A stretch of 64,000 bases of DNA from Bacteroidaceae bacterium (GTDB lineage Bacteria > Bacteroidota > Bacteroidia > Bacteroidales > Bacteroidaceae): NCBI GenBank assembly GCA_017416805.1, contig JAFQBB010000020.1:124001-188000 (forward strand). Reading direction: 5' to 3'. The notes below the pieces were generated by a model. It made no database searches and was not told where the DNA came from. It saw nothing but the letters and a program-made list of their open reading frames with translations. Below, one piece after another: positions 1,008 to 59,978 of the stretch. The translations under genes were made by a program, and so were the position numbers. Numbering within the stretch: the first letter of the stretch is position 1; each line of letters begins with the position of its first letter.

Positions 1008-1027
1008 CTGTCAGTTACCGGTGTCCA

Positions 1028-1132
1028 CTCGTAGCTCATCACTCATCACTCGTAACTTGTAGCTCGTAACTCGTAGCTCGTAGCTCGTAACTCGTAGCTC
1101 GTAGCTCGTAACTCGTAGCTCGTAACTCGTAA
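1028..1132 (+). repeat. Heptamer array CTCGTAR, 15 units
   Basis: Fifteen contiguous 7-bp units, mostly CTCGTAG or CTCGTAA with variants CTCATCA and CTTGTAG, fill the gap between the GtrA-like gene and the phosphatidyltransferase and end 13 bp before the ATG. The same word recurs at 25974-26065, 29892-29980, 30811-30845, 31242-31290, 32415-32492 and, diverged, 58877-58981. It interrupts an otherwise tightly packed operon. Confidence 0.95.
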
Positions 1133-1145
1133 CTAATAAAAAGAT

Positions 1146-23600: not shown

Positions 23601-24533
23601 TTAGTCCGTGTCGGGAGACGTTATGGATTTCTTTACAAATTGTATGATACCGTCTTGATTGTCCGGATGAAACCAAGTGATGTCTGTGTCTCGTTTGAAC
23701 CAAGTCATTTGTTTTCGTGAATATATGCGTGAGTTCTGCTTGATTTTCTCAACAGCAAAATCAAGCGTCCAAGTTCCGTCCAGAAACATGAATAGCTCTT
23801 TATAGCCCACGGTATTCAAGGAGTTGAGATGCCGATAAGGAAGAACATTCTTGACTTCATCCAATAGTCCCTCTTCTATCATTATATCTACTCTGCGGTT
23901 GATGCGCTCGTAAAGCTCTTCCCGGTCACGTTTCAAACCTATTTTGATAACGCGGAAAGGACGTTCTTTCTCTGTTTGGGTACGGAAAGAGGTGTAAGTT
24001 TGCCCTGTCATGTGGCAAATTTCTAATGCATGGATAACCCGCTTCGGATTCTTTAAGTCCACAATGCGGTAATATTCAGGGTCGAGCAGGCGTAATTCGG
24101 CGCAAAGAGCTTCCAATCCTTCTGATTCATATCTTTCCATCATGAAAGACCGTGTCTCTTCATCTACGGTGGGGATATCGTCTATGCCTTTGCATACAGC
24201 ATCAATGTACATCATCGAACCGCCTGTCAATAAAATGCTTTCATTGGATTCAAAGAGTCGGGAGATACATTCTATGGCCTCTTCCTCATAACGGGCAGCA
24301 CTATAATAATCCGTTAGAGAAAGATTTCCTACAAAATGATGCTTTACTCGTGACAGTTGTTCTTGAGTGGGGGAAGCGGTACCGATTTTTAACTCCGCAT
24401 ACATTTGGCGTGAATCAGCAGAAACGATATCGCAGCCCAACATTTCGGCGATGTTGAGACTGAGTTCTGTTTTTCCTACACCTGTGGGGCCAATCAGTAC
24501 AAAGAGGGTTTTCAATGTGGTAAAACGTGTCAA
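23601..24533 (-). CDS. miaA: tRNA dimethylallyltransferase
   Basis: This 310-residue enzyme adds a dimethylallyl group to N6 of adenosine 37 in tRNAs reading UNN codons. The P-loop [11 protein letters not shown] is at residues 14-24, the substrate motif [11 protein letters not shown] near residue 35, [16 protein letters not shown] near residue 100, and the tRNA-contact region [11 protein letters not shown]-like ([14 protein letters not shown]) near the C-terminus. Length and motif order are standard. It is transcribed with nfo and HIT downstream, and an inverted word repeat separates it from the upstream gene. Confidence 0.95.
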
Positions 24534-24535
24534 TG

Positions 24536-24606
24536 TGTTAATATGCCAATATGCTAATACCCCAATTCTATCTTTTAAATTATTGGCATATTAGCATATT
24601 GGCACA
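24536..24606. repeat. Inverted period-8 word repeat (AATATGCY arms)
   Basis: The left arm TTAATATGCCAATATGCTAAT and the right arm GGCATATTAGCATATTGGCA are reverse complements over about 20 bp and are each built of 8-bp units (AATATGCC, AATATGCT). The spacer is AT-rich, about 24 bp. It lies at an operon junction, like the CTCGTAR elements. Confidence 0.85.
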
Positions 24607-24613
24607 TTCTGTA

Positions 24614-25191: not shown

Positions 25192-25959
25192 TTATCGAAT
25201 GATTCCTCGTGACGAACTCTCAATGAATGTCACGATGTACTCAATCTCCGGACTCATAGGAATCTCTGCTTTGATGCGCTCCAAAGCTTCGCTTACATTC
25301 AAGCCGCTGTTGTAGATGAGACGGTATGCGTTGTGGATGTTTTCAATCAATTCATTGCTGAATCCACGACGGCGCAAGCCTATAAGATTGATACCACTGT
25401 ATGCCACAGGTTCGCGGGCAGCGATGATATACGGAGGGATATCTTTACTAAAGCGAGTACCTCCTTGAATCATGCCGTATCCTCCTACCCGGCAGAATTG
25501 GTGCATCAGGACATTGGCGCTGACGATTGAATTATCATCAATGACAGTTTCTCCTGCCATCTTTGTACCATTTCCTATGATGCAATTGTTGCCCACAGCA
25601 GCATCGTGTGCCACGTGTACGCCTTCCATCAGAAGGTTGTTGTTGCCCACTACTGTCTTGTTTTTAGCTGCAGTACCGCGGTTGATGGTCACGTTTTCAC
25701 GGATGGTATTATTGTCGCCCACCTCGGCTGTTGTCTCTTCTCCACGGAACTTCAAGTCCTGAGGAACAGCACCGATGACTGCTCCAGGGAAAATACGGTT
25801 GCCATTTCCTATGCGGGCACCATAAAGGATATTCACATTGGCCATGATGACGTTGTTGTCGCCAATGACCACATTCTTGTCGATGAAGCAGAAAGGACCA
25901 ATTTCTACATTGTTTCCTATTTTGGCTTCGGGATCGATATAAGCTAATGGACTAATCAT
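25192..25959 (-). CDS. lpxA: UDP-N-acetylglucosamine acyltransferase
   Basis: This 255-residue enzyme carries out the first step of lipid A synthesis, transferring a 3-hydroxyacyl chain from ACP to UDP-GlcNAc. It is a left-handed beta-helix built of hexapeptide repeats (IGNNVEIGPFCFI and so on) with the catalytic His in GVHVAHDAAVG near residue 123, and a helical C-terminus (NAYRLIYNSGLNVSEALERI). It follows lpxD and lpxC-fabZ in the same direction, forming a lipid A operon. Confidence 0.96.
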   Translation of the reverse strand: MISPLAYIDPEAKIGNNVEIGPFCFIDKNVVIGDNNVIMANVNILYGARIGNGNRIFPGAVIGAVPQDLKFRGEETTAEVGDNNTIRENVTINRGTAAKNKTVVGNNNLLMEGVHVAHDAAVGNNCIIGNGTKMAGETVIDDNSIVSANVLMHQFCRVGGYGMIQGGTRFSKDIPPYIIAAREPVAYSGINLIGLRRRGFSNELIENIHNAYRLIYNSGLNVSEALERIKAEIPMSPEIEYIVTFIESSSRGIIR

Positions 25960-25973
25960 ATCTTTTAGTTTTT

Positions 25974-26065
25974 AGCTACAAGCTATGAGCTACGAGTAAT
26001 AGCTCAAAACTTGTAACTTGATTATTCTTCATATTAACTTGTAGCTCGTAGCTTGTCACTCGTAG
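25974..26065. repeat. Inverted heptamer arms, locus lpxC-fabZ/lpxA (empty)
   Basis: The left arm is AGCTACA, AGCTATG, AGCTACG, AGTAATA (25974-26001). The right arm is CTTGTAG, CTCGTAG, CTTGTCA, CTCGTAG (26038-26065). Arms are in 7-bp register and complementary, about 36 bp apart. The right arm ends at the stop codon of lpxC-fabZ, and the left arm starts 14 bp from the lpxA ATG. Confidence 0.92.
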
Positions 26066-26066
26066 C

Positions 26067-27452
26067 TTATTTGTTCTTTATTATCTGTGCCATGAATTCA
26101 GCTTCGCAGACAACCTTTTCGCCAACGAAGACATATCCCTTCATCGTTGAAATGCCACGACGGAGAGGAGCAGTCATTTCAACTCGGAAAATCAAGGTAT
26201 CACCAGGCACTACTTTCTGGCGGAATTTTACTCCGTCAATCTTCATGAAGTATGTGCTCCAACGATCAGGTTCTTCTACTGAATTCAGTACAAGCAATCC
26301 TCCAACCTGAGCCATGGCTTCTACTTGCAATACACCCGGCATAACAGGCTCTTGGGGGAAGTGTCCTTGGAAGAATGGCTCGTTGGCTGTTACATTCTTT
26401 ACTCCCACGATGTAGTTGGCGCCAATCTCGATGACCTTGTCCACCAATTGGAAAGGATAGCGGTGGGGGAGAAGTTCGCGGATGCGGTTCACATCCATGA
26501 TGGGAGCATCATTCGGGTTATAGATAGGAGCTTGCACGTCGTGCAATTTGATTTCTTTGCGGATAAGACGGGCAAACTTGTTATTCACCGTATGTCCGGG
26601 ACGGGTTGCAATGATGCGTCCCTTGATGGGCTTACCGATAAGGGCAAGGTCGCCAATGATATCAAGCAGTTTGTGGCGGGCGGGCTCGTTTGAATGTACC
26701 AGAGGAATATGGTTGATATATCCCAATTTGGTTGCATCCATATGGGGAACTCCCATGATGTCAGCCAATTTGTCAAAGCGTTCCTGATCCATTTGGCGTT
26801 CATAGATGACGATGGCATTGTCCAAATCACCACCCTTTACCAGACCGGCATTGAGGAGGGGCTCGATTTCGCGTACGAATACGAATGTTCGGCTTGACGC
26901 AATCTCTTCAGCAAAGTTTTCCATATTGTCCAGTGTGGCAAACTGGTTGAACAAAACTTGCGAATCGTATGAAATCAAGGCATTGACACTGAAGTGCTCA
27001 TCGGGGAGAATCATGATGGAGGAGCCAGTCTCCTCATCTCTGTATTCAATCTTAGATTTGATGATATAGTAGTCCTTGACTGCTGTCTGCTCTTCAATAC
27101 CAACTCGTTGGATATTTTCAACGTAAAACTTGGCACTACCGTCCAATATAGGGAATTCTGGGCCGTTAACCTGAATCAGACAGTTGTCTATACCCGCAGC
27201 ATACAATGCAGCCATGGCATGTTCGATGGTGCTGACCTTGATGTCGCCTTTGCAAAGGACAGTCCCGCGAGTGGTATTTCCAACATTTTCTGCGACTGCA
27301 TCAATGATAGGCAGTCCTTCCAAGTCGATACGCTGGATTTTATATCCATGATTGTCCGGTGCTGGATTGAATGTTACGGTCAGGTTAAGTCCCGTGTGAA
27401 GGCCTTTTCCGCAAAGTGAAAAGCTACCTTTTAGCGTCTTTTGTTTCAGCAT
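26067..27452 (-). CDS. lpxC/fabZ: Bifunctional LpxC deacetylase / FabZ dehydratase
   Basis: This 461-residue fusion is typical of Bacteroidota. Residues 1-300 are LpxC, the zinc deacetylase committing to lipid A: LKGSFSLCGKGLHTG at the start, STIEHAMAALYAAGIDN with a metal His near residue 75, and HKLLDIIGDLALIG near residue 236 with further ligands. Residues about 315-461 are FabZ, the 3-hydroxyacyl-ACP dehydratase: LLPHRYPFQLVDKVI and NEPFFQGHFPQEPVMPGVLQVE with the hot-dog catalytic His and Glu. The two enzymes compete for the same hydroxyacyl-ACP pool, so fusion may balance the branch. It lies 6 bp after lpxD. Confidence 0.97.
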   Translation of the reverse strand: MLKQKTLKGSFSLCGKGLHTGLNLTVTFNPAPDNHGYKIQRIDLEGLPIIDAVAENVGNTTRGTVLCKGDIKVSTIEHAMAALYAAGIDNCLIQVNGPEFPILDGSAKFYVENIQRVGIEEQTAVKDYYIIKSKIEYRDEETGSSIMILPDEHFSVNALISYDSQVLFNQFATLDNMENFAEEIASSRTFVFVREIEPLLNAGLVKGGDLDNAIVIYERQMDQERFDKLADIMGVPHMDATKLGYINHIPLVHSNEPARHKLLDIIGDLALIGKPIKGRIIATRPGHTVNNKFARLIRKEIKLHDVQAPIYNPNDAPIMDVNRIRELLPHRYPFQLVDKVIEIGANYIVGVKNVTANEPFFQGHFPQEPVMPGVLQVEAMAQVGGLLVLNSVEEPDRWSTYFMKIDGVKFRQKVVPGDTLIFRVEMTAPLRRGISTMKGYVFVGEKVVCEAEFMAQIIKNK

Positions 27453-27458
27453 ATTATG

Positions 27459-28499
27459 TTATTTGTTCAATTGTTTTTTGAGTTCTTCGATTTCTTTCTG
27501 TAATGTGTTAAGAGTAGCATACATGTCTGGCAATCTCTTGGTGACTACCGATGCGCGTGCAAACAACTTGGCGTCAATTGCAGGAGAACCCATGACGGTC
27601 TGTCCTCCCTTCATGTTGCCAGGAATGCCGGTTTGTGCGCCTACAAACAGACGGTCTCCAATGGTTGAATGACCGGCAACTCCAACTTGTCCGCCGAACA
27701 TACACCATTCACCGATTTTAGTGCTTCCGGCGATACCGCATTGGGACGCCATTACCGTGTTGGCACCCACCTCTACATTGTGGGCAACTTGGATAAGGTT
27801 GTCCAGTTTGACACCCTTACGGATGATGGTGGCTCCCATGGTGGCGCGGTCGATACAGGTGTTGGCTCCAACCTCTACATTGTCTTCGATGACAACGTTG
27901 CCTATTTGGGGAATTTTCTCGTAACCATCGGCTGCAGGGGCATGTCCGAAACCATCGGCGCCAATGACACTTCCTGCATGCAAGATGACGTTGTTGCCAA
28001 TGCGGCATTCATGATAGATGGTGACGTTAGGATAGACGATACAGCCCGCTCCCACTTTGGCGTAGTCCCCAACATAGGCATGAGCATGAATTTGTGTGTT
28101 ATCGCCAATAACCGCATTCTCGCCAATGACGGCAAATGGAGCTATATACACGTTGTTGCCGATTTGTGCAGAATCTGAAATAGATGCTAAAGGACTGATA
28201 CCAGTCTTTTTTGGCTTGCTCATTTCATAGAGCGTCAATAATTTGGCTATGCATTCATAAGCATTGTCCACCTTGATAAGTGTTGTCTTGACTTCCTTTT
28301 CAGGAACGAAGTCCTTGTTCACCAGGACTATGCTTGACTGTGTCTCATAAAGATAATGGGCATATTTGGGGTTAGCCAGAAATGATATGGCTCCAGGCAT
28401 ACCCTCTTCTATTTTTGCAAATGTTTGAACAGTAGCATTCTCGTCACCCACGACAATGCCTTGAATATATTCGGCAATCTGTTTGGCGGAAAATTCCAT
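27459..28499 (-). CDS. lpxD: UDP-3-O-acylglucosamine N-acyltransferase
   Basis: This 346-residue enzyme adds the second hydroxyacyl chain in lipid A synthesis. The N-terminal uridine-binding domain ([19 protein letters not shown]) is followed by a hexapeptide-repeat beta-helix with [19 protein letters not shown] near residue 180 and the catalytic His in [12 protein letters not shown] near residue 235. A C-terminal helix ([14 protein letters not shown]) ends the protein. It leads the lipid A genes lpxC-fabZ and lpxA. Confidence 0.96.
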
Positions 28500-28653
28500 T
28501 TCTTCTTAATTTCTTATGGTTACTTACACATCATATCGGGTATAATAAAGCTCAGTTTGTGCTTTCTCCCCTTTATTAATGTGCAAATTACGCATTTTTT
28601 TTTCAAATCTCACTACAATTAGCCAAATATTTATTATCATTTTCACACTTTTA

Positions 28654-29877
28654 TTATTCTAAACGTAATGTGCAAATGTAATATTTCCTGACTTTCTTGG
28701 ATAGAGTAGATATATTCAGCATGTCAGAAGCATAGGCGATATCGTGTGTCTCGCCATCTTTGAACATGATGTCGATGCTATCATCCTCTTTACTGTACAT
28801 GTCTTTTCCAATGGAATTGGTGCATAAGAAATACTCCGAATCCTTCAGGCTGATATTCAGGTGTGTACTTATGCCTTTAAGTAGCTTTGCTTTATATTCT
28901 TTACTGATTGGTTTGTCAGAGACTTCGACTCTGAAAAGCTTCCGATTGATAATTCCTTTACTTAATGTGGATAGGATTACGTCCGGATGGTCACACCAGA
29001 TTTTTAAGGAAGTCCAGATGTCGTTATCGTCTAATTTTGTATAATTATCTAAACAAATCGGATCTTTTTTGAAATCTTCCGAAGTTATATTATTGTATAG
29101 AAAGAAATGAAGTGCAGGTGAGGCGAATAGCTCAACACCCTTTTCGGCCAGCTCCTTAGCACGTAATAGAGCGCTTACCAACATTTTTTCTGCGGCTACG
29201 GATGTTTTGTGCAGATATACTTGCCAATACATCAGCCGTCGTGCCATCAGGTAATTTTCTATAGAATAAATCCCTTTGGAGTCAACTACCAGATGGTCAT
29301 CTTTTACATTCAGCATCTTGATGATACGTGCCGAGCCGATGTTGCCCTCTGTCACTCCCGTATAGAAACTGTCACGTCGCAAGTAATCCAGACGATCCAT
29401 GTCCAACTGGCTGCTGATGAGCTGGTGCAGAAACTTCTTCGGATATTCATCTTTGAATATCTGTATGGCCAGATTCAGTTGCCCTTTCATCTCGTTGTTC
29501 ATACGCTCCATCAGCATCAGTGAAATTTCCTCGTGGCTGATACCTTTCACTAATGTATGTTCAAGTACATGTGAGAAAGGCCCATGGCCGATGTCGTGCA
29601 TCAGGATGGCGGCTTGTACGGCCTCGGCTTCGCTATCGAAGATAAAGTTTCCCTTCATCCTCAACGTATTGATAGCCTCTGTGGTCAGGTAAAAAGCTCC
29701 TAATGAGTGCTGGAAACGCGTGTGTTGTGCCCCAGGATATACGATGGATGAGAGCCCCAGTTGCTTGATGCGTGTCAGACGTTGTAGGATAGGGTGGGTC
29801 ACGATGTCGTAGAGCAACCCTTTGGGTATGTTGATGAATCCGAAGACAGGGTCGTTGATTATCTTGCGATCTTGCAT
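28654..29877 (-). CDS. HD-domain phosphohydrolase
   Basis: This 407-residue cytosolic protein of the HD superfamily has metal-binding motifs: the first His in GAQHTRFQHSLG near residue 50, the HD pair in LMHDIGHGPFSHVLEHT near residue 92, and a later Asp in SQLDMDRLDYLRRDSFYTG near residue 160. This is the arrangement of dNTP triphosphohydrolase-like HD proteins such as SAMHD1 relatives. The substrate is unknown; nucleotide hydrolysis is likely. It lies between pyrF and lpxD in the minus-strand block, separated from pyrF by inverted heptamer arms. Confidence 0.88.
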   Translation of the reverse strand: MQDRKIINDPVFGFINIPKGLLYDIVTHPILQRLTRIKQLGLSSIVYPGAQHTRFQHSLGAFYLTTEAINTLRMKGNFIFDSEAEAVQAAILMHDIGHGPFSHVLEHTLVKGISHEEISLMLMERMNNEMKGQLNLAIQIFKDEYPKKFLHQLISSQLDMDRLDYLRRDSFYTGVTEGNIGSARIIKMLNVKDDHLVVDSKGIYSIENYLMARRLMYWQVYLHKTSVAAEKMLVSALLRAKELAEKGVELFASPALHFFLYNNITSEDFKKDPICLDNYTKLDDNDIWTSLKIWCDHPDVILSTLSKGIINRKLFRVEVSDKPISKEYKAKLLKGISTHLNISLKDSEYFLCTNSIGKDMYSKEDDSIDIMFKDGETHDIAYASDMLNISTLSKKVRKYYICTLRLE

Positions 29878-29891
29878 GCTTTATAGTTATT

Positions 29892-29980
29892 AGCTACGAG
29901 CTACAAGTTACGAGTGGAGGCAATAAACTATTTTTCTTATGTTTATTACTCACCCGTAGCTTGTAGCTCGTAACTCATTA
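29892..29980. repeat. Inverted heptamer arms, locus pyrF/HD gene (empty)
   Basis: The left arm is AGCTACG, AGCTACA, AGTTACG (29892-29912). The right arm is CCCGTAG, CTTGTAG, CTCGTAA, CTCATTA (29953-29980). The centre is AT-rich, about 40 bp. The right arm contains the pyrF stop codon (29978-29980), and the left arm lies 14 bp from the HD gene ATG. Confidence 0.92.
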
Positions 29981-30796
29981 CTTATTCAATTGTTCAGCCA
30001 TCTGCTCCTGTACCTTCTTGGCTTCTATGCCAGCCACTTCGGCAAAGCGCTCGGTCTTGTCAGCATAGATGATGGCACGGCTTGAGTTCACGATGAGGCC
30101 ACAATCTTTGGTCATACCGTATTTGCAAACCTCCTCGAGGCTGCCACCTTGTGCTCCGACACCAGGCACCAGCAAGAAGTGGTTGGGCACAATCTTACGG
30201 ATGTCCTCAAACATGCGTCCTTGGGTGGCACCTACCACATACATCATGTTTTCATCGTTGGCCCACTCTTGGCTCTTGCGGAGCACTTTCTCAAACAGAC
30301 GTTCACCTTCAGTGTCGGTAGTCAGCTGGAAATCGTGTGAACCTTTGTTGGATGTCAATGCCAACAAGATAACCCACTTGCCTTCGTAAGTGAGGAAGGG
30401 AGTCACTGAATCCTCTCCCATGTAAGGAGCTACGGTCACCGAGTCAATATCCATCTCTTCGAAGAAGGTGCGTGCATACATTTGCGATGTGTTACCGATG
30501 TCGCCACGCTTGGCATCGGCGATGATGAATTGTTCGGGGTAATTCTTCTTGATGTACTCCACCGTCTTTTCGAATGCAATCCATCCCTTCACACCCATGC
30601 TCTCGTAGAAAGCCAAATTGGGCTTGTAGGCGATACAATAGGGAGCGGTGGCATCGATGATAGCCTTGTTGAAGGCAAAGATAGGATCTTCCTCTTTCAA
30701 GAGGTGCTCAGGTATCTTCTTGATATCCGTGTCAAGTCCTACACAGAGGAATGACTTCTTCAATTTGATTTGTTCAATCAGTTGTTGTTTGTTCAT
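29978..30796 (-). CDS. pyrF: Orotidine 5'-phosphate decarboxylase (type 2)
   Basis: This 272-residue enzyme decarboxylates OMP to UMP in pyrimidine synthesis. The motif [14 protein letters not shown] near residue 17 and the catalytic [14 protein letters not shown] near residue 92 are clear, and [12 protein letters not shown] follows near residue 129. Length and the DAKRGDI context fit the longer type 2 OMP decarboxylases found in Bacteroidota. It is encoded between the four-helix-bundle gene and the HD gene. Confidence 0.96.
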
Positions 30797-30810
30797 GATT
30801 TACAGTTATT

Positions 30811-30845
30811 AGCTACAAGCTACGAGCTACAAGTGAGCAGTGCTT
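30811..30845. repeat. Left heptamer arm flanking the four-helix-bundle gene
   Basis: AGCTACA, AGCTACG, AGCTACA, AGTGAGC and AGTGCTT follow in 7-bp register. The four-helix-bundle stop codon (30827-30829) lies inside this arm, so the last residues (STAHL) are encoded by repeat units. The complementary arm is at 31242-31290. Confidence 0.88.
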
Positions 30846-31219
30846 GTATTGTTATTAGTTCTTAAAGAATTTATTAGTCCACAGAGCATCTTGATGACTT
30901 CATTTAGCGCATGATTAGCTTCTTCGTATTGTTCAGAGTTTATGTATTGAAGTCTTGTCGAGATTATGAGAAACGTTTCCAGTTCAGTTGCTGAACCTAA
31001 AGCTATGTGTAAAAACTGTATTAATTCGCTTTTGTTTTTCCGACCAGAACCTTCTGCAATATTGGCAGGAATGGAAGTTACACACCTTCTTATTTGATTG
31101 GTTAGAGCATATAACTCTTCTTTGGGATATTGTTTGGTTAAAGAGTAAATCAATATCACCAAATCCATGCTTTTTTGCCAAACTAATAAATCCTTATGTG
31201 TCTTAATATCTCCCACCAT
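30827..31219 (-). CDS. Four-helix-bundle (S23/23S intervening-sequence-type) protein
   Basis: This 130-residue protein belongs to the four-helix-bundle family first described in 23S rRNA intervening sequences and related to the Avd proteins of diversity-generating retroelements. Visible signatures are KDLLVWQKSMDLVILIYSLT at residues 9-28, LTNQIRRCVTSIPANIAEGS at residues 42-61 and the ELIQFLHIALGSATELETFL helix near residue 69. No rRNA, reverse transcriptase or variable repeat is near. It sits between prfA and pyrF and is bounded by complementary CTCGTAR-type heptamer arms. The same arms occur without a gene at other junctions, which suggests that this gene is a passenger or driver of that repeat element. 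Molecular function is unknown. Confidence 0.85.
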   Translation of the reverse strand: MVGDIKTHKDLLVWQKSMDLVILIYSLTKQYPKEELYALTNQIRRCVTSIPANIAEGSGRKNKSELIQFLHIALGSATELETFLIISTRLQYINSEQYEEANHALNEVIKMLCGLINSLRTNNNTSTAHL

Positions 31220-31241
31220 TATTCGTTATTGTCTGTTTTTA

Positions 31242-31290
31242 CTTGTAGCCCATTACTCGTAGCTCGTAGCTCATCACTCGTAGCTCATCT
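31242..31290. repeat. Right heptamer arm flanking the four-helix-bundle gene
   Basis: Seven units in strict register: CTTGTAG, CCCATTA, CTCGTAG, CTCGTAG, CTCATCA, CTCGTAG, CTCATCT. The last two bases overlap the prfA stop codon (31289-31291), as right arms do at the other loci. Confidence 0.92.
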
Positions 31291-32401
31291 ACAATTCACT
31301 CTCCTTCATCCGTTCGGCATTCTCCGCCACGGTCAGCTGGTCGATACAATCCTGGATGTCGCCATCCATGAAGGCGGCCAGGTTGTAGATGGTGTAGTTG
31401 ATGCGGTGGTCGGTGATGCGTCCTTGCGGATAGTTGTAGGTACGGATCTTGGCCGAGCGGTCGCCCGTAGATACCATCGTCTTGCGCTTGGCGGCAATGT
31501 CGTCGATGTACTTTTGGTGCTCCTTATCATATATAAAGGTACGCAGGCGCGAGAGGGCACGCTCCTTGTTCTTCGGTTGGTCGCGTGTTTCGGTGCATTC
31601 GATGAGGATTTCCTGCACCTCGCCCGTGTTGGGGTTCCGCCAGTTGTAGCGCAAGCGTACACCTGACTCCACCTTGTTCACATTCTGTCCACCCGCACCG
31701 CTTGAGCGGAAAGTGTCCCACTTGATTTCCCCTTCATTGATTTCCACATCGAAGGCTTCCGCTTCGGGGAGTACGGCCACGGATGCCGCCGAAGTGTGCA
31801 CACGTCCCTGTGTCTCTGTAGCCGGCACACGTTGTACGCGGTGAACGCCCGATTCATATTTCAGTGTGCCATATACCTTTTCGCCCGTCACCGAGCAGAT
31901 AATTTCCTTATATCCACCGGCCGCTCCTTCGCTGGCACTCGATACCTCCATGCGCCAACCTTTTGTCTCGCAATATTTGGCATACATGCGGAACAGGTCG
32001 CCGGCAAAGATGGCCGCTTCGTCTCCACCCGTACCACCACGTATTTCCAAGATGGCATTGCGGTCGTCTTGCGGGTCGGCAGGTACAAGGAGCAATTTGA
32101 TTTCTTCCTCCAGTTGGGGGATACGGGCTTCGCAGAGGTTGGCCTCTTCGCGAGCCATCTCCTTCATCTCAGGGTCACTTTCGGTGAGGAGCAATTGCTT
32201 TGCCTCTTCGTAACCGTTGAGTGCATCCACGTACTCCTTCCTTACCCGCATGATTTCGCTCAAATCCTTGTACTCCTTGGTCAACTTCACGTAGCGTGCC
32301 TGGTCGGCAATCACGTTCGGATCGGTGATGAGGGTAGAAACCTCCTCAAAACGTGCTATCAGCCCTTCGAGTTTTTCTAATATGGTGTTGTCTGTTGCCA
32401 T
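31289..32401 (-). CDS. prfA: Peptide chain release factor 1
   Basis: This 370-residue factor recognises UAA and UAG in the ribosomal A site and triggers peptide release. The universal GGQ is in RSSGAGGQNVNKVES near residue 235, and the codon-recognition region lies in the preceding domain. The N-terminal coiled coil and C-terminal domain are present, giving normal length. The PAT-type anticodon motif is represented by VPATETQGRVHTS near residue 194. It is encoded between purM and the four-helix-bundle gene. Confidence 0.96.
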   Translation of the reverse strand: MATDNTILEKLEGLIARFEEVSTLITDPNVIADQARYVKLTKEYKDLSEIMRVRKEYVDALNGYEEAKQLLLTESDPEMKEMAREEANLCEARIPQLEEEIKLLLVPADPQDDRNAILEIRGGTGGDEAAIFAGDLFRMYAKYCETKGWRMEVSSASEGAAGGYKEIICSVTGEKVYGTLKYESGVHRVQRVPATETQGRVHTSAASVAVLPEAEAFDVEINEGEIKWDTFRSSGAGGQNVNKVESGVRLRYNWRNPNTGEVQEILIECTETRDQPKNKERALSRLRTFIYDKEHQKYIDDIAAKRKTMVSTGDRSAKIRTYNYPQGRITDHRINYTIYNLAAFMDGDIQDCIDQLTVAENAERMKESEL

Positions 32402-32414
32402 TTAAAAAGTATTC

Positions 32415-32492
32415 AGCTACAAGTTACGAGCAACAAGTAAACCTGGTGCGGCATAGACTTGTCACTCGTAGCTTGTAGCTAGTCACTATTTA
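32415..32492. repeat. Inverted heptamer arms, locus purM/prfA (empty)
   Basis: The left arm is AGCTACA, AGTTACG, AGCAACA, AGTAAAC (32415-32442). The right arm is CTTGTCA, CTCGTAG, CTTGTAG, CTAGTCA, CTATTTA (32458-32492) and contains the purM stop codon (32490-32492). The left arm lies 13 bp from the prfA ATG. The spacer is only about 15 bp. Confidence 0.92.
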
Positions 32493-33662
32493 ATATTTGA
32501 ATTCTCCGAATTCGCTCTTGATGGTCAATTCCTTCTGTCCGTCGCTCTCCTCGATGCGTCCGATGATTTGTGCGTCGATGCCGAAGCTCTTGCTGATGGC
32601 GATGACCTCTTCTGCATATTCGGGTGCAAGATATACTTCCAGACGGTGACCCATGTTGAACACCTTGTACATCTCTGCCCAATCGGTGTTGCTCTGCTCC
32701 TTGATGGTTCTGAAGAGAGGAGGCACGGGGAAGAGGTTGTCCTTGATGACGCGGCAATTGTCGCCCACGAAGTGCAGCACCTTCGTTTGTGCACCTCCCG
32801 AGCAGTGTACCATACCGTGGATATTTTTTCTCAGGTTATCCAAAAGTTTTTTCACAACGGGGGCGTAAGTTCGCGTAGGTGAAAGCACCAGTTTGCCCGC
32901 ATCAATGGGGCTGCCCTCTACGGCATCGGTCAACTTCAGTCCACCGCTATATACCAACTCCTCGGGTACGCCTGCGTCGTAACTTTCGGGATACTTCTCG
33001 GCCAGATACTTGGCAAATACATCATGGCGGGCGCTGGTCAGTCCGTTGCTTCCCATACCACCGTTGTACTCCTTCTCGTAGGTGGCCTGTCCGTAAGAGG
33101 CAAGACCCACAATCACGTCACCTGGCTGGATGTTCGCATTGTCAATCACGTCGCTACGCTTCATGCGACAAGTCACTGTGCTATCTACAATGATGGTGCG
33201 CACTAGGTCACCCACGTCGGCTGTCTCGCCACCCGTAGCATACACGCCTACACCCATTTCACGAAGTTCGGCCAGCAACTCGTCCGTGCCATTGATGATG
33301 GCGCTGATTATCTCACCCGGCACAAGCAGTTTGTTACGTCCGATGGTCGAGCTCACTAGGATGTTGTCCACTGCACCTACGCAAAGCAGGTCGTCGATGT
33401 TCATGATGAGTGCATCCTGTGCAATGCCCTTCCACACACTCAGGTCGCCTGTCTCCTTCCAGTAGAGGTAAGCCAATGACGACTTGGTGCCTGCACCGTC
33501 GGCATGCATGATGTTGCAATACTCCGGGTCGCCGCCCAAGATGTCAGGGATGATTTTACAGAAAGCTTTCGGGTAGAGACCCTTATCAATGTTCTTGATG
33601 GCATTGTGCACATCTTCTTTCGAGGCCGATACGCCACGCATCATGTACCGTTGGTTACTCAT
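32490..33662 (-). CDS. purM: AIR synthase-like protein (phosphoribosylformylglycinamidine cyclo-ligase)
   Basis: This 390-residue enzyme of the PurM/AIR synthase superfamily should close the imidazole ring of AIR in purine synthesis, using ATP. Motifs include HADGAGTKSSLAYLYW near residue 54, NIDDLLCVGAVDNI near residue 88, ATGGETADVGDLVRTI near residue 141, PGDVIVGLASYGQATY near residue 181 and MVHCSGGAQTKVLHFV near residue 286. The form is longer than E. coli PurM (about 345 residues) and diverged, as is common in Bacteroidota. It starts the minus-strand block behind a good promoter. Confidence 0.88.
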   Translation of the reverse strand: MSNQRYMMRGVSASKEDVHNAIKNIDKGLYPKAFCKIIPDILGGDPEYCNIMHADGAGTKSSLAYLYWKETGDLSVWKGIAQDALIMNIDDLLCVGAVDNILVSSTIGRNKLLVPGEIISAIINGTDELLAELREMGVGVYATGGETADVGDLVRTIIVDSTVTCRMKRSDVIDNANIQPGDVIVGLASYGQATYEKEYNGGMGSNGLTSARHDVFAKYLAEKYPESYDAGVPEELVYSGGLKLTDAVEGSPIDAGKLVLSPTRTYAPVVKKLLDNLRKNIHGMVHCSGGAQTKVLHFVGDNCRVIKDNLFPVPPLFRTIKEQSNTDWAEMYKVFNMGHRLEVYLAPEYAEEVIAISKSFGIDAQIIGRIEESDGQKELTIKSEFGEFKY

Positions 33663-48655: not shown

Positions 48656-48764
48656 AGGTTCTCTTCCGTCGGACTTTAGCATCGTTGGCATTTTTCTTTA
48701 CCTGTCCGTTTGTTGGCGGATAGGAATTTGACCGTTCGTATGCTTCGAAGAGTGTAAAGTAGAG

Positions 48765-48840
48765 TGCGGCACTACGCAAAAGTGCAGTGCCGCACTGTAC
48801 AAAAGTGTAATGCCGCATTGCAAAAAAGTGTAGTGCCGCA
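48765..48840. repeat. Palindrome array, 4 x AGTGCSGCACT, period 23
   Basis: TGCSGCA cores start at 48765, 48788, 48811 (ATGCCGCAT variant) and 48834, each exactly 23 bp apart, with A-rich GTACAAAAGTG-type spacers. The array lies between the divergent LRR gene and HTH gene, in an 884-bp gap whose remaining parts (48656-48750, 48850-49040) show nothing further. Confidence 0.95.
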
Positions 48841-49047
48841 CTACACTTTACACTCTCTTCGATTTTCCGGCATATCTTCTTCGGTAGGTGAACGGATGAA
48901 TAGCACTTCTCCGCCCGTCGTGTAGGTGCATTGTAGGGGAAAAGTAGGCATAGAAATTCTGAAATGTTTGTACATGGGGAGAATTTGGGTTGTTCTTGAT
49001 ACCAAAATCCAAGATAGGCTTCACCTCATCATAAAAAACAAAATTTG

Positions 49048-55964: not shown

Positions 55965-56023
55965 GGTATATTTACCATTGTTTTAAAGTCGCAAAAAAGC
56001 CCCTATATGAGGGCTGAAGATAC

Positions 56024-56107
56024 CCCACGCGTGGGTGGCAGTTGTACCCCACGCGTGGGGTATCTTGATAGGGCACGCGTGGGGTACCATCACACCCCAC
56101 GCGTGGG
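56024..56107. repeat. Palindrome array, 4 x CCCACGCGTGGG, period 24
   Basis: Copies start at 56024, 56048, 56072 (GGCACGCGTGGG) and 56096, each exactly 24 bp apart; several extend to TACCCCACGCGTGGGGTA. It lies between convergent genes, 60 bp after the nucleotidase. Confidence 0.95.
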
Positions 56108-56180
56108 GTATAATGCCCCCTTTTTTGTTCTTGCAACACGCTCATACACAGATCGTTGCAAAACGCTACTTTAAGCACTG

Positions 56181-56216: not shown

Positions 56217-56254
56217 TACATTTCCATTTGTAAATATCCGTGACCATGCTTCAA

Positions 56255-56384
56255 GGGTCACTGTGACTTTTCATCAAGGGTCATAATGACTTTTCATCAA
56301 GGGTCATAATGACTCTTCATCATGGGTCATAATGACTCTTCATCATGGGTCATAATGACTCGTCGTCAAGGGTCATAATGACCC
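56255..56384. repeat. Palindrome array, 6 x GGGTCATAATGACYC, period 23
   Basis: GGGTCA starts at 56255, 56278, 56301, 56324, 56347 and 56370, with no deviation from 23 bp. The last copy is a perfect 7+1+7 palindrome (GGGTCATAATGACCC). Spacers read TTCATCAA/T. It is unrelated in sequence to the array 150 bp upstream. Confidence 0.95.
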
Positions 56385-56444
56385 TTGGAGGGTACTTCTG
56401 GTGGGTTTGCCGATTGTATATAATTTTCGTAACGCTATCACTCC

Positions 56445-58876: not shown

Positions 58877-58981
58877 AGCTACTATTGATTAGCGACTTGT
58901 TACGAGCTACAAGTTACGAGTTGATAGTATATCGCCTTGTCCGCATGGTCAATAGCCACCAGTCACTATTCACTATTCACT
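58877..58981. repeat. Diverged inverted heptamer arms upstream of the TonB receptor
   Basis: Left units include AGCTACT, AGCGACT, TGTTACG, AGCTACA, AGTTACG, AGTTGAT (58877-58925). Right units are AGTCACT, ATTCACT, ATTCACT (58961-58981) and overlap the stop codon of the lipoprotein gene (58980-58982). The layout is the same as at the purM-lpx loci, but with more word drift. Confidence 0.75.
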
Positions 58982-59978
58982 AATTACGGCTCTTCAGACG
59001 ATTTTCGAACAGGGCATGTCTTCTTTGGATTTGTCCTGCACGAGTTGCCTTGGCCTGGTATTCGTTTTCGTTGGGAGAAAATTCTCCTTGCTCTTCAATT
59101 GTACCGTACGTAAAGTCGTCGCTATTTGCGCGTCGGATTGTTCCGTCCTCATTGAATTCGTAGGTGTATGAGTAATTATAATTATAATTATCTGTATATT
59201 CTTCGTCTTCCCATTCTTCTACACAAACAAGATTCATCTTTACGGGCAAATAATCAGGTCCTGCTCCGAAAAGTCCGATATAGGCACATATACTGGCCGC
59301 ATCTCCGAGGAGGTAATCCACAAATGTAGCATATTGTTTATGCCTGTTTTCATACACCCTGTCTCCATAATCAAAAGTGGCAGATTCTCTATATGTCCAA
59401 CCGTCATCGTCGGAACCTGCATATTCATACTTGGTCAAAAGCCCATTGTCCCATGTCAGGTTGATGGTCAGTGTTCCTTCTGTTCGCTCTGTTTCGCCGT
59501 CGTAGGTGTATTCTTCAAAGTTTTTACCTGTAATCCTTGTCAGATGTCCTTCGCCGTCATAGGTCAAATCTGAAGTTGAGCTGTAAGTGTCTTTCTCATT
59601 CTCATCTTCGTAGCTGCCAGATTCCTGCATTTTGGAAATGAACCCATTCCCATTGAAAGAGAAGGATATAGTCTCGATATCTTCTTCCCCATAATGACTG
59701 ATTACTTGGTTTGAAGAGAATTCATGATACGAAGACCACTCAGTGGCATATTTTATTTTTCCGTCCGAAGTATAGTAGAATTTATATTCTCCTACAGAAA
59801 GAAGTTTCTTTCCGCTTCCCTGAACTATTTCTCCCACGTTTGTACTGAGTGTGCCGGTACTTCCTCCACTTCCATTATCGTCATCATCGTCATCATCGCT
59901 ACAAGCCTGTATAGAACACATTGAAAAGCCGACAAAAAGGGCAATGAAGAATCTTTGTAAATATTTGATGTTTGTCAT
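58980..59978 (-). CDS. Acidic lipoprotein of unknown function
   Basis: This 332-residue protein has a lipoprotein signal (FFIALFVGFSMCSIQAC) followed by an Asp-rich tether (SDDDDDDDNGSGGSTG). The body is beta-rich with YD- and RHS-like short repeats (YTSDGKIKYATEW, LTYDGEGHLTRITGKNFEEYTYDGETE, YTYEFNEDGTIRRANSDDF), like DUF4595-type lipoproteins of gut Bacteroidales. The acidic tether is typical of surface-exported lipoproteins in this group. Its role is unknown. It is upstream of the TonB receptor in the same direction, separated by word repeats. Confidence 0.7.
   Translation of the reverse strand: MTNIKYLQRFFIALFVGFSMCSIQACSDDDDDDDNGSGGSTGTLSTNVGEIVQGSGKKLLSVGEYKFYYTSDGKIKYATEWSSYHEFSSNQVISHYGEEDIETISFSFNGNGFISKMQESGSYEDENEKDTYSSTSDLTYDGEGHLTRITGKNFEEYTYDGETERTEGTLTINLTWDNGLLTKYEYAGSDDDGWTYRESATFDYGDRVYENRHKQYATFVDYLLGDAASICAYIGLFGAGPDYLPVKMNLVCVEEWEDEEYTDNYNYNYSYTYEFNEDGTIRRANSDDFTYGTIEEQGEFSPNENEYQAKATRAGQIQRRHALFENRLKSRN

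Follow-up and report, generated by a model that had tools for sequence, protein, structure and literature searches.

The window analysed here is a 64,000-nucleotide stretch of a Bacteroidaceae bacterium genome (assembly GCA_017416805.1, contig JAFQBB010000020.1, positions 124,001 to 188,000). Between prfA and pyrF, and not inside a 23S rRNA, it carries a four-helix-bundle gene of the S23 family enclosed by two facing arrays of a seven-nucleotide unit, and arrays of the same unit recur at other junctions of the window. The gene names used for these junctions (purM, prfA, pyrF, the HD-domain gene, lpxC-fabZ and lpxA) are those that we take the translations to indicate. The features are as follows.

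30827..31219, minus strand: S23 (23S rRNA-intervening-sequence-protein) gene, four-helix bundle, 130 residues (PF05635, TIGR02436)
31241..31286, minus strand: 5' arm of the S23 element, CTACRAG-type heptamers, starting at the prfA stop codon
30804..30834, minus strand: 3' arm of the S23 element, with the S23 stop codon inside
29885..29982, no strand assigned: gene-less hairpin of the CTACRAG heptamer, pyrF / HD-domain gene junction
32415..32487, no strand assigned: gene-less hairpin of the CTACRAG heptamer, purM / prfA junction, which fell below the period cut of the hairpin detector
25974..26068, no strand assigned: gene-less hairpin of the CTACRAG heptamer, lpxC-fabZ / lpxA junction
58899..58987, no strand assigned: CTACRAG array opposite a diverged TTCACTA-type array, a weak pair
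1027..1134, minus strand: lone array of about 15 CTACRAG heptamers (108 bp) without a facing arm
24524..24608, no strand assigned: gene-less hairpin built from AATRTGCY, the 8-mer unit of a second S23 gene of this genome (L003)

The S23 open reading frame (ORF) scored above the cut-offs of Pfam PF05635 (2.5e-40) and NCBIfam TIGR02436 (6.6e-40) in profile searches. It also resembled two families of Avd, a related four-helix-bundle protein of diversity-generating retroelements, PF22296 (3.1e-9) and NF033474 (1.1e-12), and stayed under the curated cut-offs of both (37.7 bits for a cut-off of 40 and 48.2 for a cut-off of 80, respectively). The S23 and Avd families were the only ones matched at 1e-3 in Pfam and NCBIfam, with no transposase family and no nuclease family among them, and Rfam gave no match at gathering score across positions 25500-33500. 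The two solved relatives of the protein (2gsc and 2rld) hold five chains per entry, and the one from Xanthomonas is reported to form a homopentameric torus of four-helix bundles (PMC4990558).

The two arms of the S23 gene are runs of CTACRAG and its complement, in which 30804-30834 and 31241-31286 align over 31 nt at 74% complementarity, with a best core of 23 nt at 87% (30804-30826/31256-31278). The final codons of the gene and its stop (CAC TTG TAG) are themselves arm units. The original prediction of an S23-type gene enclosed by complementary heptamer arms, with arm units forming its stop codon and last residues, is borne out by these alignments and by the two profile matches, and at the minus-strand sites the right arm abuts or runs into the upstream gene's stop codon, as had also been proposed. 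The pattern RGCTACRAGYTAC occurs 192 times in the 3.16-Mb genome and only once when read backwards, so the heptamer pattern is not a matter of chance.

Facing arms also exist at the three junctions where gene-less pairs had been predicted, with 29885-29916 complementary to 29951-29982 over 32 nt (84%), 32415-32438 facing 32457-32487 and 25974-25997 facing 26035-26068; their collective label of purM-lpx junctions has to be replaced by purM/prfA, pyrF/HD-domain gene and lpxC-fabZ/lpxA. The diverged pair predicted at 58877 retains one good array (58899-58922), and because its TTCACTA-type partner at about 58961-58987 is diverged, this site counts as weak. The hairpin detector reported two periodic hairpins in the 64-kb window, its period cut having missed the sites at 32415 and 24540. 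Repeats of other kinds are present as well, including neighbouring strong palindromic repeats of the CCCCACGCGTGGGG and GGGTCATAATGACTC types (56008-56113 and 56249-56390), which are not of the heptamer kind, and an imperfect inverted repeat of 46 nt (AGAGTGTAAAGTAGAGTGCGGCACTACG...) at 48749-48856.

The association of S23 genes with inverted arms was surveyed in three sets of S23 loci: the 80 best of 573 matches, taken in named genomes belonging to several phyla; the loci of the window's genus; and the best 30 from a phylum-wide sample of 395 genomes, 298 of which had an S23 match. Of 149 S23 ORF matches in 137 of 140 loci, we used the 140 whose flanks reached 100 nt or more on either side. 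Arms were scored by aligning the 250 nt preceding the gene with the 250 nt following it for their best local complementarity, with a threshold of 14 set from a preceding run and then kept. Inverted arms spanned 105/140 S23 genes and 17/470 control ORFs, these controls being the longest non-overlapping ORFs of the same loci rather than verified genes; among controls of 270-600 nt the count was 5/111. The Fisher p value of 5e-68 ignores relatedness, and since some loci are near-copies (L036/L064, with identical flanks, and L339/L340), 140 is not the number of independent events. Arms were found across 91/110 S23 genes of the named genomes and the genus, across 14/30 of the phylum set, and across 9/10 S23 genes of cyanobacterial plasmids, these ten being drawn from 46 matching plasmid records; 50,697 phage records contained no S23 match. 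The enrichment of four-helix-bundle genes between such arms, which the original prediction would lead one to look for, is present, and its first observation is confirmed and is far more general than a single locus.

Among the 91 distinct elements with a score of at least 16, the arm period was 7 in 57, 8 in nine, 9 in one and 10 in one, with no clear period in the remaining 23, and the median arm length was 32 nt (25-75%: 27-40.5). Arm lengths are compatible with four to five units, and the idea of five heptamers fitting a five-fold ring is not diagnosed by them. The 5' arm had a positive G-C skew in 78 elements, a negative one in six and zero in seven. A common core motif of the units was considered and dropped because 55 de-duplicated 5' arms shared no strong 4-mer beyond composition, leaving the G-rich polarity of the 5' arm as the feature that stands. 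Units read from the flanks included GGCAGTA in Mesorhizobium, GGGGTTA, GGGGATA and GGGAACA in cyanobacteria, AAGARTG, GGAGTTAAA (9 nt) and AATRTGCY (8 nt) in the window's genus, and AAGTTRTA-like words at what we take to be the argC-argD junction of many Bacteroidota. In two cyanobacterial plasmids (Pseudanabaena galeata, L342, and Anabaena sp. 90, L345) an armed S23 gene lies in sense between cas6 and cas4, the surrounding CRISPR operon in L345 being named type I-D.

The elements occupy a characteristic place in the operon. Both neighbours point in the direction of S23 in 99/118 cases and in 241/369 controls, and neither does in 0/118 and 33/369, respectively. In the 87 distinct elements with both neighbours, which were used for placement, the distance from the upstream stop codon to the outer edge of the 5' arm has a median of 0 (within 3 nt in 32/80, between -19 and +10 in 60/80), and the next ORF starts a median of 6 nt past the 3' arm (68 cases). 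The 3' arm starts at or before the S23 stop codon, as it does in the window, in 27/91 elements.

The unit follows the gene from place to place. Pairs of the 140 S23 genes were compared where their neighbours were non-homologous, with an arm match defined as a score of at least 16. Arms matched in 44% of the 70 pairs with proteins at least 60% identical, many of which share one member (L105), in 3.4% of the 649 pairs at 50-60% identity and in 0.3-1.1% of pairs below 50%, and a Mantel test permuting whole genes gave r = 0.17, with 0/999 permutations as high. The seven best matches to the window S23 are 63-75% identical to it. In four of them (L061, L062, L063 and L066; 66-75%) the arms are CTACRAG and the junction is not prfA-pyrF; the other three (L064, L065 and L067) bear related arms of CTAGYTA or CTAGTAG type, L065 presumably lying at a prfA-pyrF-like junction of another genome, as judged from its flanking translations. 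These comparisons show that the S23 gene and its unit are inherited together.

The arrangement of one gene-bearing and several gene-less copies, inferred earlier from the window, is supported for three unit families of the genome, which has three S23 genes with three units, the 7-mer of the window, a 9-mer (L002) and an 8-mer (L003). Among the places listed, the 9-mer has 29 sites besides its own S23 gene (31 clusters, two of which are the arms of the S23 element) and the 8-mer has 15. The 7-mer forms at least 44 clusters on contigs C1-C32 alone, a count taken from 100 of its 192 matches, all on contigs before the window's own. On these contigs 5/17 9-mer clusters lie within 300 bp of a 7-mer site, where a rough estimate expects about 0.3, indicating that the elements pile up at shared places. 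One intergenic region (L004, 1480-1800) holds four unit families, and its CTACRAG array has a higher-order repeat of 21 bp, comprising three heptamers.

Unit dimers were counted across congeners and other genomes. The 8-mer gave 45, 92 and 54 dimers in the three congeners that carry its S23 and none in the other five that were searched; elsewhere the Paludibacter genome had 20, G015 had one and the seven others had none. The 9-mer gave 47, 37 and 43 dimers in the three congeners that carry its S23. It also gave 49 in G007 and 15 in G004, two incomplete assemblies where a search found no S23 of this kind, 0-1 in each of the other ten congeners and 0-3 in nine further genomes. For the 7-mer, G000 had 161 and four other genomes with CTACRAG-armed S23 relatives had 114-314; G007, in whose incomplete assembly no CTACRAG-armed S23 was found, had 90, the other 13 congeners had 0-13, Paludibacter nine and the 28 remaining genomes 0-1. 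Samples of 8 to 240 kb were examined from ten S23-bearing genomes, the window included; five of them contained cognate gene-less sites, and each pair gave 0-2 off-target matches. Hairpin density in genome samples did not separate S23-bearing from S23-less genomes: seven S23-less genomes yielded two periodic hairpins in 700 kb, both of the heptamer kind and both from the 100 kb of G010, four S23-rich genomes two in 400 kb and six named S23-bearing genomes one in 1040 kb. Only some lineages show gene-less amplification.

Orthologous junctions vary in their occupancy, as had been anticipated for prfA-pyrF. This junction could be read end to end in 10/15 congeners (prfA was not found beside pyrF in G001, G010, G012 and G014, and the contig of G007 ended). 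With the final 12 nt of prfA counted in each length, it holds the S23 element in G000 (504), a clean spacer in G005 (24), G009 (35) and G011 (43), a hairpin without a gene, made of another 8-mer, ACACAGAG, in G003 (107) and G008 (104), another inverted element (GACCC...GGGTC) in G002 (127, L151), G004 (176, L154) and G006 (127, L150), and an unclassified spacer in G013 (378). The ACACAGAG hairpin, whose prfA-pyrF copies are L152 and L153, also occurs after pyrF in G007 (L163).

A second junction was followed in Mesorhizobium, in the 30 best-matching loci of 61 genomes searched. It is filled in 10/30 (spacer 451-549) and clean in 19/30 (21-26), and the one remaining locus (L333, G486; spacer 132) has a gene-less pair of a different heptamer, AGTAGTG/ACTACTG. 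The leader of L333 resembles that of the filled alleles, and it is perhaps a cassette that lost its gene. The array starts at the stop codon, and in four filled genomes it supplies the stop, extending the protein by one residue. Occupancy requires eight changes on the tree of the neighbouring gene, and array lengths differ between close relatives. The leader GGAGCRCC is shared by 9/10 filled alleles and missing from all 19 empty ones, so whole-allele exchange is likely to be part of the story, and part of the patchiness may reflect this exchange rather than transposition. Unit dimers elsewhere in the genome had a median of 20 in filled versus nine in empty genomes when the element's own were removed (p 0.017), and of 28 versus nine when its own matches were counted (p 4e-4). 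By eye, no target duplication was noticed in the filled and empty junctions, where variable arrays and spacers could hide one of 2-3 bp, and neither an insertion event nor a mobilising enzyme was seen. In the Mesorhizobium elements S23 has a median dN/dS of 0.07 (36 pairs), close to the 0.06 of the adjacent dehydrogenase (45 pairs), which shows that the S23 protein is under purifying selection.

The nearest described relative of the element by content is the intervening sequence (IVS) of the Coxiella burnetii 23S rRNA, which is reported to carry an S23 ORF, complementary ends forming a stem and a variable number of tandem GACAGAT heptamers before the ORF (PMC4990558). The Coxiella IVS lies inside the 23S rRNA and is reported to be processed by RNase III, whereas the element of the window sits between genes of a protein operon and gene-less copies of its unit are scattered through the genome. 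Its authors call this IVS selfish, and judge its S23 ORF to be expendable and probably not expressed (PMC4990558). The earlier remark that the protein family was new to such a role needs the qualifier that intervening sequences of 23S rRNA classically carry an S23 ORF, tandem heptamers upstream of S23 having been reported before in one of them (PMC4990558).

By analogy, REP/RAYT would be the nearest system in logic, as both have a gene flanked by inverted repeats, with cognate gene-less repeats dispersed through the genome. In REP/RAYT the repeat abundance is tied to the gene (PMC2817692); with S23 such a tie is seen in some lineages only, the 8-mer following its gene in eight congeners and the 9-mer and 7-mer mostly doing so, with G007 and G004 as exceptions. 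They differ in that a REP is described as one GC-rich palindrome, whereas S23 arms are tandem arrays of 7-10-nt units, and in that RAYT is a Y1 tyrosine transposase (PMC2817692). As no transposase family of Pfam or NCBIfam is matched by S23, the likeness drawn by the original prediction holds for the logic and not for membership, and its interpretation as a whole is partly supported.

Intergenic heptamer arrays have been described without the gene. They include GGGAATC in Xanthomonas and GGGGA(C/T)T in Nostoc, with 70 facing array pairs in one Xanthomonas and 75 in another (PMC4692102), and the TAACTGA heptamers of Beggiatoaceae, Cyanobacteria and Bacteroidetes (PMC4679880). Like the arms of S23 they are tandem, sometimes form facing pairs and have lineage-specific units, and the cyanobacterial STRR are alike as intergenic heptamer arrays. 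PMC4692102 reports no general association of the arrays with mobile elements, and a word search of the main texts of PMC4692102 and PMC4679880 did not return S23. A link between S23 genes and heptamer arrays outside rRNA was not found in the open-access literature, a search that covered few subscription papers and no preprints.

These findings are best accounted for by a cassette consisting of a gene for a four-helix bundle of 120-130 residues between two inverted arrays of a short tandem unit, in which S23 recognises its own arms and which represents the intergenic form of the 23S rRNA intervening sequence, a reading to which we give a probability of roughly 0.55. Recognition, mobility and mechanism are what we infer from the patterns described above. 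The S23 protein, a ring of five in a solved relative, would recognise its own tandem units, and this recognition would maintain the arm pair and occasionally let it spread to other intergenic sites, with gene-less pairs as its non-autonomous offspring. A cassette placed behind a stop codon and co-transcribed would do little harm to the operon, and the rRNA-borne form would avoid harm by being cut out of the rRNA. As S23 matches no nuclease family, the function that cuts and copies DNA would have to be borrowed from the host or from another element. Several results count against this reading: half of the sampled genomes had no cognate gene-less sites, hairpin density did not follow S23, arrays or hairpins occur in genomes where no matching S23 was found, the phylum set had fewer armed genes, the leader of the filled Mesorhizobium alleles points to allele exchange, and the S23 ORF of Coxiella is judged expendable.

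Much of the same evidence can be read as that of a domesticated regulator, in which the arms form an mRNA hairpin (a stabiliser, processing site or attenuator) and S23 binds its own and the gene-less hairpins in trans, with no mobility today. The excess of neighbours in sense, the position between stop and start codons and the purifying selection on S23 would all suit a regulator, and RNase III processing is reported for the rRNA form (PMC4990558). Such a role fits poorly with units that differ freely and with patchy presence at orthologous junctions between essential-looking genes. The arm mismatches on the coding strand comprise 93 G-U and 103 A-C, with no preference for wobble; selection on RNA pairing is not visible in them, which slightly favours recognition of the repeat as such (in DNA or in a single strand) over recognition of a folded RNA hairpin. 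A regulator is considered rather unlikely.

The two other explanations are already disfavoured. If the arms were ordinary transposon ends or MITEs (miniature transposable elements) that a transposase mobilises in trans, S23 riding along as a passenger, this could explain the inverted ends, the dispersed gene-less copies and the pile-ups at shared places. Such ends have a fixed terminal sequence, whereas no fixed one is found here: S23 stays constant while the arm sequence and unit length change completely between its lineages. No target duplication was noticed by eye in the filled and empty junctions either, although one of 2-3 bp could be hidden there, and the passenger explanation is held to be improbable. 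It is more improbable still that stop-codon junctions are merely a hot spot, gathering slippage arrays and small genes independently, S23 among them. Array lengths that differ between close relatives, arrays where no S23 was found and different hairpins at one junction could all arise in this way; against it, control ORFs are rarely between arms, also at lengths of 270-600 nt, both arms share one unit in inverted order, and the unit follows the S23 lineage across non-homologous junctions.

A broader form of the cassette reading is tentative, and we regard it as doubtful on present evidence. S23 rings would be the specificity factors of a widespread class of mobile elements without a transposase, each lineage reading its own unit of 7-10 nt, settling as a sense hairpin behind stop codons and leaving gene-less hairpins behind. 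The orphan intergenic heptamer arrays long known from bacteria would then be its non-autonomous offspring, and rRNA intervening sequences a special case that landed in an rRNA gene.

The structures of S23 proteins have been solved and, to our knowledge, they have no known function, and we know of no maker for intergenic heptamer arrays. The link between the two would give each a testable partner, as every S23 gene names its own candidate binding site, and the sense-oriented placement abutting stop codons can be sought in strain collections. The intervening sequences of rRNA would be recast as one case of a much commoner intergenic element.
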